NCBI RefSeq assembly: GCF_013139515.1
Contig: NZ_WTAR01000114.1
Location: 1-55,699, forward strand
Direction: 5' to 3'
DNA length: 55,699 nucleotides
Source of the DNA: Lutibacter sp.
GTDB lineage: Bacteria > Bacteroidota > Bacteroidia > Flavobacteriales > Flavobacteriaceae
Within the stretch, counting starts at the first letter, position 1, and each line of letters begins with the position of its first letter. The notes beneath the pieces were generated by a model. The model was given only the letters and a program-made list of their open reading frames with translations. It was not told the DNA's origin and ran no database searches. Shown piece after piece: positions 50,177 to 52,914 of this stretch. The position numbers and the translations under genes are program-made.

Positions 50177-51628
50177 TTAAAGAATTGAAAATGCTTCTTT
50201 AGTCTGCGTTAAACATTTTTGAATCATTTCAATAGCTGTATCAATAGTTGCTTTTTTAGTTCTAATAGAAAGTATAGCCATTCGTATTACAAACTTTCCA
50301 TTTATTTTAGTTGTGCTAAAAAACACATCACCATTTTCATGGATAAACTCAACTAACTTTTTATTAAATGTGTTTTCATCAATTTTTGCTGAAGGATACC
50401 AAAAATAACTAATTGTTAAGTCTGGTTGAGGTCCTACTTTAAAGCCTATTTCAGTTAATTTATTTCTGAAATATTCAGTTAATAATATTTTTTCCTCAAA
50501 ACTAGCAATAAAAGGTTTTAACCCGTGAATTTGTAACGGTAACCACATTCTTAACCCTCTAAAATGTTTTGTTAATTCAGGAGAAACATCTGAAGGATTT
50601 ATTTGTAAATCTGCTGAAATTGCATCTTGCATATAATCTGCCGTGTAATGATGTGAATGAAAAACAGCTTCTTTATCTTTAATTAAAACAGCGCCTATTC
50701 CGTAAGGTAAAAATAATCCTTTATGTGGATCAACAACTAAAGAATCAGCTAATTCAATTCCTTTAAATAGTTGTTTTTTACTTTCCACCAACATAAAAAA
50801 CCCACCATAAGCACCATCAATATGATACCATAAATTGTTTTCTTTCGCTATTTTTCCTATTGCTGATAACGGATCAATTGCGCCTGTGTCAGTTGTTCCA
50901 GCAGTAGCAATTACCATAAATGGATTCAGTCCATTTGCAATATCTTCTTCTATTTTATCTGTTAATTTACTCGTATCAATTTTAGATAATTCATCCAACT
51001 CTAAAATGCTAATTTTGAGATCTTCTAAGCCGATAATTCGAAGCGCTTTATGAATGCAATGATGTGCTTGCGGACTTAAATACAACACACTTTTGGGAAT
51101 TTTTTCATTTTTAATTTTATGTTTATCACGTGCTGCTGTTAATGCAATAAGATTTGCTATTGAACCTCCAGAAGTTAGATTTCCAACGGCATCTTTTGGA
51201 AAACCAAAAATAGATTTCATCCAATTTAATGTTTCATTTTCAATAGCAACAGCACCAGGTGAAGCATAATACATTCCTGCATATTCATTAGTAACACTCG
51301 CTAAAAAATCGGCTAAAGCTGCTGTATAAATTCCACCGCCAGGCACATATCCTAAATGTTTTCCTGAGGCTGGTTTAATTCCTTTTGAAACAACTTCTGA
51401 ATTATAAATAGCTAAAATTTCAGCCAAATCTTTTTTAATTGAATTAATAGTTAGTTTGTTAAAATCTGGATTTCCTTCAACATAAGCAGGATAATTTTCT
51501 AAATTTTCAATAAAATTGTTGGCAAATTCACGAACTTGTTGATTCAGTTTTTCTCTTTCTTTAAAAGAAGGGTTTAGTTGCTGAGAGATTTGTTGTAGTG
51601 CTTCTATTTGATTAATTAAATTATTCAT
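50177..51628 (-). CDS. PLP-dependent group II amino-acid decarboxylase
   Basis: A 483-residue fold type I PLP enzyme. NLTSGGSIANLIAL binds phosphate, HIDGAYGGFF holds the pyridine-contacting Asp, and DPHKGLFLPYG contains the PLP lysine near residue 303. Relatives decarboxylate aromatic amino acids, glutamate, aspartate or diaminobutyrate; the substrate cannot be chosen. I start at ATG 51628. The frame runs to 51676, but a TACCTTTG promoter box (51644-51651) lies in that extension. Confidence 0.88.
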   Translation of the reverse strand: MNNLINQIEALQQISQQLNPSFKEREKLNQQVREFANNFIENLENYPAYVEGNPDFNKLTINSIKKDLAEILAIYNSEVVSKGIKPASGKHLGYVPGGGIYTAALADFLASVTNEYAGMYYASPGAVAIENETLNWMKSIFGFPKDAVGNLTSGGSIANLIALTAARDKHKIKNEKIPKSVLYLSPQAHHCIHKALRIIGLEDLKISILELDELSKIDTSKLTDKIEEDIANGLNPFMVIATAGTTDTGAIDPLSAIGKIAKENNLWYHIDGAYGGFFMLVESKKQLFKGIELADSLVVDPHKGLFLPYGIGAVLIKDKEAVFHSHHYTADYMQDAISADLQINPSDVSPELTKHFRGLRMWLPLQIHGLKPFIASFEEKILLTEYFRNKLTEIGFKVGPQPDLTISYFWYPSAKIDENTFNKKLVEFIHENGDVFFSTTKINGKFVIRMAILSIRTKKATIDTAIEMIQKCLTQTKEAFSIL

Positions 51629-51643
51629 AAGTAAAATAAACAT

Positions 51644-51651
51644 CAAAGGTA
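51644..51651 (-). promoter_or_regulatory. -7 element (TACCTTTG) for the decarboxylase gene
   Basis: A perfect TAnnTTTG match on the minus strand, 15 bases before ATG 51628. It rules out the longer N-terminus. Confidence 0.6.
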
Positions 51652-51844
51652 ATTTATTGTATTTAAAGGATAACATAAGTATTTAAAGAAGTACAAACCC
51701 TTAAAAAGGCTCATTAAAATATGAAATTATGCTATTATTGATTTGTTTTCTCTAAAAAATAAAATTTACAAAAATCTCACATTTCACATATTTATCTATA
51801 TATCAGTAATTTACATTTTTAACATGTGTTAAATATTTCACAAT

Positions 51845-51894
51845 ATAGTACTTTGTTTTGCATAGTACTATATTTAAATATATATTTGTACTAT
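51845..51894 (+). promoter_or_regulatory. Near-consensus promoter with three ATAGTAC/GTACTAT boxes
   Basis: TTTTG (51856-51860) and TATATTTG (51881-51888), 20 bases apart, form a strong Bacteroidota promoter. Its start would be near 51895, about 25 bases before the first small gene. ATAGTAC occurs at 51845-51851, the full palindrome ATAGTACTAT at 51862-51871 between the two promoter elements, and GTACTAT at 51888-51894 over the expected start. The arrangement suggests a regulated promoter with three operator sites. Confidence 0.65.
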
Positions 51895-51918
51895 CATTAA
51901 CCAATTAAACTATTTATT

Positions 51919-52053
51919 ATGAAAACTTTAAACAATATTATCGATTATTTAAGCACAACGGAAAACGATCAGTTAAAACACAAAGGAAGATTTATTAATT
52001 TCCATACCACAAAAAGAACAAGCTGGAACAGAAAAAGAAATTACGGATTTTAA
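51919..52053 (+). CDS. Small basic protein (44 residues), first of a tandem pair
   Basis: ATG 51919 to TAA 52051-52053 encodes 44 residues starting MKTLNNIIDYLSTTENDQL. The N-terminal third looks like an amphipathic helix. The rest is basic and aromatic, with the pattern KHKGRFINFH, then TKRTSWN, then KRNYG at the end. No signal peptide or membrane segment is present. A nearly identical gene follows after 44 bases (37 of 44 residues the same), and the differences are spread across the protein. A strong promoter precedes it. I do not recognise the family. Confidence 0.7.
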   Translation: MKTLNNIIDYLSTTENDQLKHKGRFINFHTTKRTSWNRKRNYGF

Positions 52054-52097
52054 TCCTTGAATTAACCACATTAAACTAACTATTAAAACTATATATT

Positions 52098-52232
52098 ATG
52101 AAAACTTTAGACAACATTATTGACATTTTAACTACACAAGAAAACGATCAGTTAAAACACAAAGGAAGGTTTATTAATTTCCATCATACAAAAAGAACAA
52201 GCTGGAATAATAAGAGAAATTACGGATTATAA
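52098..52232 (+). CDS. Small basic protein (44 residues), second of a tandem pair
   Basis: ATG 52098 to TAA 52230-52232 encodes MKTLDNIIDILTTQENDQL followed by the shared KHKGRFINFH, TKRTSWN and KRNYG blocks. It differs from the first copy at residues 5, 10, 12, 14, 30, 38 and 44. The leader before the ATG (TAAAACTATATATT) is also similar to that of copy one, so the duplicated unit includes its translation signals. It ends ten bases from the convergent rsmI gene. Function unknown. Confidence 0.7.
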   Translation: MKTLDNIIDILTTQENDQLKHKGRFINFHHTKRTSWNNKRNYGL

Positions 52233-52242
52233 AATTTAAGTA

Positions 52243-52914
52243 TTATTTCTTTCCTCCTACTACAATAACAAATTCACCTTTGGTTGATTTTGTTGTGAAA
52301 TGCTCAATAACTTCTAAAACAGTTCCTCTTACAGTTTCTTCGTATAATTTTGTCAATTCTCTTGAAACTGAAATAGCGCGACCTTCACCAAAATACTCTG
52401 AAAAATGAGTTAGTGTTTTTAATAATTTATGAGGCGATTCGTAAAAAATCATAGTGCGTGTTTCTTCGGCTAAAAAAGTTAATCGAGTTTGTCGTCCTTT
52501 TTTTACAGGTAAAAACCCTTCAAATACAAATTTATCATTTGGCAAACCACTATTCACAAGCGCTGGTACAAAAGCTGTTGCGCCAGGTAAACATTCAATT
52601 TCAACATTATTTTCTAAACAAGCACGCGTTAATAAAAACCCAGGATCGGAAATTGCAGGTGTACCAGCATCAGAAATTAAAGCGATGTTTTCACCATTTT
52701 TAATTCTCTGAACAATGTTGTTTACCGTTTTATGCTCATTGTGCATATGGTGGCTATGCATATGTGTAGAAATTTCAAAATGTTTTAATAATTTTCCACT
52801 TGTACGTGTATCTTCAGCTAAAATTAAATCAACTTCTTTTAAAATTCGAATTGCTCTAAGGGTAATATCTTCTAAATTTCCAATGGGAGTTGGCACTAAA
52901 AAAAGCTTTGCCAT
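52243..52914 (-). CDS. rsmI: 16S rRNA (cytidine-1402 2'-O)-methyltransferase
   Basis: A 223-residue tetrapyrrole-methylase-fold enzyme with MAKLFLVPTPIGNLEDITLR, AEDTRTSGKLLKHF and ISDAGTPAISDPG, all diagnostic of RsmI. It lacks the extra C-terminal domain of the E. coli protein. The ATG at 52914 is one base after the end of the cupin gene; a longer frame to 52938 would overlap that gene and is not needed. Confidence 0.94.
   Translation of the reverse strand: MAKLFLVPTPIGNLEDITLRAIRILKEVDLILAEDTRTSGKLLKHFEISTHMHSHHMHNEHKTVNNIVQRIKNGENIALISDAGTPAISDPGFLLTRACLENNVEIECLPGATAFVPALVNSGLPNDKFVFEGFLPVKKGRQTRLTFLAEETRTMIFYESPHKLLKTLTHFSEYFGEGRAISVSRELTKLYEETVRGTVLEVIEHFTTKSTKGEFVIVVGGKK

Follow-up and report, generated by a model that had tools for sequence, protein, structure and literature searches.

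What two adjacent genes of 44 codons contribute to a cell, when their products match no family in the libraries searched, is the question raised by a locus of Lutibacter sp. (Flavobacteriaceae; assembly GCF_013139515.1). The DNA analysed here, henceforth the window, is a stretch of 55,699 nucleotides from contig NZ_WTAR01000114.1, and the features under study are collected in Table 1. The original prediction had described two complete small genes with 44 bases between the stop codon of one and the ATG of the next, encoding proteins identical at 37 of 44 residues and preceded by similar leaders. The reading frames, the spacing and the seven differences are all confirmed, and the similarity of the leaders extends to a repeated unit of 156 nt (leader included) whose copies are 85% identical, at a start-to-start distance of 179. 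Selection on the protein is likewise borne out, as changes fall mostly at the third codon position and dN/dS lies between 0.06 and 0.25 in 10 pairwise comparisons of five copies (both window genes and the copies in genomes G033, G018 and G031), the genes being short and dS near saturation in some pairs. The window pair is a tandem duplication of protein-coding genes. Neither protein carries a secretion signal, as predicted, nor a long hydrophobic stretch of the kind found in type I toxins, both judged by eye, and the two are probably cytoplasmic.

Table 1. Coordinates of the features discussed, in window positions, with loci in other genomes given by label.
Feature	Coordinates	Strand	Basis or remark
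Palindromic operator TATAGTACTTTGTTTTGCATAGTACTATA, putative PadR-type repressor site	51844..51872	.	sequence; same site type at PadR operon
Sigma-A type -7 box TATATTTG	51881..51888	+	TAnnTTTG consensus; begins 38 bases before ATG
Untranslated short leader of gene 1, resembling that of gene 2	51889..51918	+	presumed transcription start
Gene 1, 44-aa basic protein MKTLNNIIDYLS..TKRTSWNRKRNYGF	51919..52053	+	ATG ORF
Intergenic leader, 44 bases, resembling gene 1 leader	52054..52097	+	sequence comparison
Gene 2, 44-aa paralogue MKTLDNIIDILT..TKRTSWNNKRNYGL	52098..52232	+	ATG ORF
Convergent neighbour, TP_methylase family (PF00590)	52243..52914	-	domain match
KRRFG(I/L/F) subfamily loci	L034, L069, L072, L076, L080, L082, L084-L088, L090-L093, L095, L099, L100, L102-L104		

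The two genes are members of a broad, apparently unnamed family of flavobacterial proteins of about 40 residues, and homologues with an open frame, whose absence would have spoken against the original prediction, are abundant. A search with one of the window proteins, at an E value as loose as 1, matched 44 of 100 related genomes, in part surely by chance; profile A1 recovered the family in 34 of 38 Lutibacter genomes (E <= 0.01), and a read-out of the DNA yielded 74 distinct sequences sharing the C-terminal motif (S/T)K(R/S)xxWxxxR(R/N)(Y/F). At E <= 0.01 the wider profile A2 gave matches, a few of them with internal stops, in 67 of 299 Flavobacteriaceae genomes, and the still wider A3 matched 64 of 397 genomes in 39 of 237 genera (E <= 0.0001). 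Across the order, 8 of 296 genomes gave a match (E <= 0.001), six of which are open frames, all six in Flavobacteriaceae; the matches in G480 and G526 contain internal stops and look like chance. Members from the other genera whose DNA was read out usually conform, exactly or closely, to M(K/R)x..TPTE(S/A)RR..FFSNFK(N/D)SKRVRW(S/A)E.RNY, and tandem arrays of two to five copies are common. Residues W36 and R40 are invariant in all 41 rows of the A3 alignment, and 162 of the 170 collected members fit (S/T/A/C)(K/R)(R/S/G)xxWxxxR, a pattern that fixes W and R by construction; four of the eight members outside it lack the last R. The conserved arginine of the motif is written with six different codons and the lysine with two. 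Neither the family and its spread nor the palindrome at 51844-51872 had figured in the original prediction.

Searches of the Pfam, NCBIfam, PHROGs and PDB sequence libraries returned no credible family match, so that the proteins remain without a described family there, as first claimed. Four weak Pfam matches, each to one member and with a best E of 0.018, are regarded as chance, as are the EgtB_X signature TIGR04373 in one member (E of 0.015; 15.4 bits against a cut-off of 71) and the methylase 3ldu (E of 0.052 and 0.15). The motif and operator strings were not found in the literature searched. The Rfp small RNAs of F. psychrophilum, according to the accessible part of their description, typically lack coding potential, and no link to them was found. 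With a mean z of 0.27 over 157 cores, the sequences give no support to an amphipathic helix that would bind membranes. The AlphaFold2 model, at a mean pLDDT of 65.5 and a pTM of 0.26, is weak; it places helices at residues 3-18 and 32-40, and only block 31-40, which holds the motif, reaches about 81 and is the sole fairly confident part. A stable fold finds no support in the model.

The main new result is regulatory, namely that one type of operator is common to the promoters of many of the small genes, the window pair included, and of a PadR operon. The palindrome that precedes the window pair is of the form TAGTACTTTGTTTTGCATAGTAC and, at up to three mismatches within 260 bases, stands before 68 of 117 array-leading genes of the family (those with no other hit within 200 bases upstream), against a mean of 0.0 in 20 base shuffles each, which preserve composition only. 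Leaving out the seven genes that had been fetched by means of the operator gives 61 of 110. The 68 comprise 45 of 78 leading genes from Lutibacter and 23 of 39 from other genera; the remaining 49 of the 117, the KRRFG(I/L/F) subfamily among them, have no such site. In the genome of the window, a relaxed form of the pattern occurs at five distinct places and its reversed control at none: three lie before family members, one (contig C49) before the PadR operon, and one at the end of contig C140, where, by eye, a probable member is cut off after its first seven codons, beside a divergent CoA-binding neighbour that resembles the one at loci L230-L237. Scanning the genus revealed sites in 36 of 38 Lutibacter genomes, with 152 strand matches versus 7 for the reversed pattern. 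At least 92 distinct sites are listed: 34 precede family members, another 34 the PadR operon, and the other 24 lie elsewhere; at no more than one mismatch, the 46 among the sites listed divide, in this order, into 22, 19 and 5. Three of these five can be placed: the C140 site, a copy of the PadR-operon site at the end of a contig in G027, and, in G015 and close to a contig end, a site preceding a DUF4870-like gene. All operator counts include related genomes of one genus, uncorrected for kinship. Moreover, since promoters of the family had supplied the pattern, and the C49 site had already been seen when it was set, what is counted at family members does not amount to independent evidence; the PadR-operon counts in other genomes and the loci predicted from the operator weigh more.

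On contig C49 the operon has the order DUF4870-PadR-HAAS/PspC. In this genome, the one scanned for domains, a PadR-family winged helix-turn-helix gene (PF03551, 67.3 bits) adjoins the HAAS/PspC gene (PF04024, 79.3 bits), the HAAS domain PF22564 scoring 25.4 bits against a cut-off of 27. The PadR gene is present in 36 of 38 Lutibacter genomes and in 113 of 120 sampled Flavobacteriaceae genomes, and since the small proteins occur in far fewer, this regulator does other work too. The best-scoring PadR loci, 59 in number, were retrieved as DNA; within 700 bases upstream of the operon's first gene and at up to three mismatches, the operator is found at all 31 from Lutibacter (G017 included) and at 20 of the 28 from other genera, where shuffling gives expectations of 0.0 and 0.05 in the two batches. 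At the positive loci the site lies, by eye, just before a reading frame resembling the DUF4870 gene or a relative of it, and the eight loci of other genera without a site within 700 bases may be longer operons.

The operator also led to family members. Twenty regions were fetched, 19 of them around sites without an assigned member or PadR gene, and eight (L230-L237) contain a tiny motif-bearing reading frame 21-48 bases downstream of the site, that of L230 being a variant of the motif. Seven of the eight had been missed by the A1 search, and genome G028, with no member there, gained one. In all eight, by eye, the tiny gene is followed by a gene that starts with MK(K/N)I, has a signal-peptide-like beginning and runs into AQ(L/I)P; its fragment in L231 matches CarboxypepD_reg-like domains, and a longer copy of this type in another genome (L101) matches OMP_b-brl_3 and TonB_dep_Rec. 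The remaining twelve regions are C140, one DUF4870-like gene, seven CreD-like or membrane-protein genes and three other genes; 10 of the 20 hold neither a member nor a PadR operon, and seven of these sites precede the CreD-like or other membrane-protein genes.

Several side observations belong to these regions. L230-L237 and C140:1-230 form a conserved small locus made up of the operator, a divergent tiny reading frame (..TKRTNWNSKRRYEVLTHFKF type), the MK(K/N)I gene and a divergent gene of CoA-binding type. A related palindrome of the type AAGTACTTTGAAATACAAAGTAA provides the operator-like sites of L238-L240, L244, L245 and L248, before a gene that is presumably CreD-like, and is also seen before a membrane-protein gene containing SRF(I/L)SLSGL(S/A)GILAG; a different regulator of similar type probably uses it. 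At L243 1056-1382, directly behind an operator-like site, a gene encodes a protein of some 109 residues that looks secreted and has no Pfam match, and the same protein type follows a tiny gene at L097 2141-2467 and L083 2201-2524.

Two kinds of promoter box accompany the small genes. The window pair has a sigma-A box matching the flavobacterial -7 consensus TAnnTTTG (PMC9723704, in the part accessible), as do 38 of 117 array-leading genes (8.6 after shuffling). The other, GTAAC(A/G)-N15-18-CGT(C/T), is ECF-like and is found upstream of 63 of 117 array-leading genes (0.15 after shuffling; Lutibacter 39 of 78, others 24 of 39), and not in the promoter of the window pair. In F. psychrophilum, according to the accessible part of the same source, the hallmark of the ECF-type SM6 promoters is a CGT in the -10 region. 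Operator and ECF-like box occur together before 52 of the 117 genes, without exception with the GTAAC beginning exactly 1 base behind the operator 23-mer; because the box abuts the operator at this fixed spacing, repressor and sigma factor would be expected to compete. The best reading of these boxes is that the family regulon is driven in part by a putative ECF factor. The KRRFG(I/L/F) subfamily, found by eye once per genome, has the sigma-A promoter without the operator; the family is therefore wider than the regulon. Its genes sometimes precede exported or lipoprotein-like genes.

The window pair ends 10 bases short of a convergent gene of the TP_methylase family, taken here to be RsmI-like. 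Relatives of the same subfamily adjoin an RsmI-like gene in G033 and G018, and also in G032 at a contig end, so that this neighbour identifies the orthologous position in the three genomes; the gene was not found in the fetched G031 locus. As G033 and G018 show a single copy beside the RsmI-like gene (the G032 locus is cut by the contig end), the duplication may be local to the lineage of the window. In G018 the single tiny gene is separated from the RsmI-like gene by a hydrophobic, probably membrane-spanning reading frame, MRKYNYLIIAGF.. (L106 3164-3418), which the window lacks. Among genes behind the arrays, a domain set of nine hand-chosen ones from the same-strand cases described below, together with that of L243, includes several that fit the envelope, namely an HlyD adaptor at two loci, a MacB/FtsX permease and a TonB-type receptor; the others encode a beta-lactamase-fold protein, thioredoxin-fold and S9 peptidase products and, in two cases, proteins without a Pfam match.

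Taken as a whole, the best explanation, and one that is probably correct as far as sequence can indicate, is that the pair encodes tiny basic effectors of a PadR-repressed, envelope-stress regulon. At rest, the PadR-family repressor of the DUF4870-PadR-HAAS/PspC operon would occupy the palindrome before the pair as well as the promoter of its own operon; upon damage sensed by the membrane-linked HAAS/PspC partner, PadR would be released and the small genes transcribed, in the window from the sigma-A promoter, in many relatives from one directly adjoining the operator that appears to depend on an ECF sigma factor. HAAS-PadR dyads have been proposed to relay membrane signals from PspC (PMC11237479, in its accessible part), and membrane stress is the presumed signal because that source proposes an envelope link for HAAS-PadR. 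The conserved C-terminal motif would be the part through which the proteins act, most likely serving as a short, peptide-like binding element for docking on one stress partner at the inner membrane face, and tandem copies would raise the dose. That the partner lies on the membrane side is the least certain point of the proposal and is itself rather doubtful. The proteins would accordingly be effectors or tuners of a membrane-stress response.

Other readings compete with the proposed regulon. The original prediction had derived nucleic-acid or ribosome binding from composition, and a role in stress as ribosome or RNA binders, akin to small hibernation-type factors, would indeed suit a net charge averaging +6.5 in 37 residues, the conserved W, Y/F and R, and a high dose from arrays such as a stoichiometric binder might need. 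No credible ribosome- or nucleic-acid-binding relative was found, however, in Pfam, NCBIfam or PDB sequences, and no homology to a described family of ribosome-associated stress proteins of the RMF or Sra type; a ribosomal protein, presumably bL38 of F. johnsoniae being the candidate relative, was dropped after a PDB sequence search without a credible match and a literature search that yielded only a ribosome study on Borrelia. Since the common operator and some neighbours (TonB-type receptor, HlyD, MacB/FtsX) point instead to the envelope, ribosome or RNA binding appears unlikely. An equally improbable alternative would have the peptide bind PadR or its HAAS/PspC partner and tune the response by feedback: the operator is common to the small genes and the PadR operon, and small proteins that tune their own sensor, such as MgrB, are known in other bacteria, but PadR is nearly universal in Flavobacteriaceae and the small proteins are not, and many members have no operator.

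Translated leader peptides controlling the gene behind them are a much weaker candidate. At 22 of 115 array ends a same-strand reading frame does begin within 200 bases (16-198 away), several of them exported or envelope genes; at 73 of the 115, however, the largest reading frame within 900 bases, as called mechanically throughout, lies on the opposite strand. At the window pair no same-strand gene follows directly, the next gene being the convergent one 10 bases away, the motif is kept at the level of the protein, and an Rfam search of 51600-52400 found no match, which together make such a role very improbable. The near-identical tandem units might even suggest a repeat that is mobile or carried by phages, or chance reading frames within a non-coding RNA, yet the third-position changes and low dN/dS, the absence of a PHROG match for 41 members and of any match when one query apiece was put to phage and to plasmid records, and the RsmI-like neighbour kept in G033, G018 and G032 leave that reading with hardly any probability.

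Beyond the window, Flavobacteriaceae may have a class of micro-effectors, so far undescribed, whose dose is amplified by tandem genes. These proteins of about 40 residues would share a fixed C-terminal W/R/Y motif, their genes would be gated by a PadR repressor together with an ECF sigma factor, the sites of the two abutting at a fixed spacing, and they would execute or tune the response to envelope damage. This generalization is tentative, with chances slightly short of even. How Bacteroidota respond to envelope stress, and which small proteins they make, has in the authors' judgement been little explored; a family detected in 39 of 237 sampled genera, nameless in the libraries searched and equipped with a readable operator offers direct experimental handles in its repressor, operator and motif, and suggests possible targets for a regulator so widely distributed. 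Genes of about 40 codons are, moreover, easily omitted from annotation, and one profile could fill this gap in many genomes.

Comparison with known systems places the proposal between several precedents. The SM6 (CGT-box, ECF-type) promoters of Flavobacterium psychrophilum share the CGT in the -10 region with many family promoters, and the accessible part of their description mentions neither a tiny-protein family nor a PadR operator (PMC9723704). LftR of Listeria, an organism of another phylum than Lutibacter, is likewise a PadR-like repressor with envelope-related targets, according to the portion of the source available (PMC6624303). Further precedents are the PSP/HAAS-PadR-like wHTH envelope-stress systems, of which the main text, in its accessible part, describes no family of tiny motif-bearing effectors and does not name DUF4870 (PMC11237479); the small proteins themselves match no Pfam family. 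They likewise place PadR beside a HAAS-like and PspC protein, and the logic of membrane sensing followed by release of PadR, which the genes suggest for Lutibacter, would be the same in both (PMC11237479, same part).
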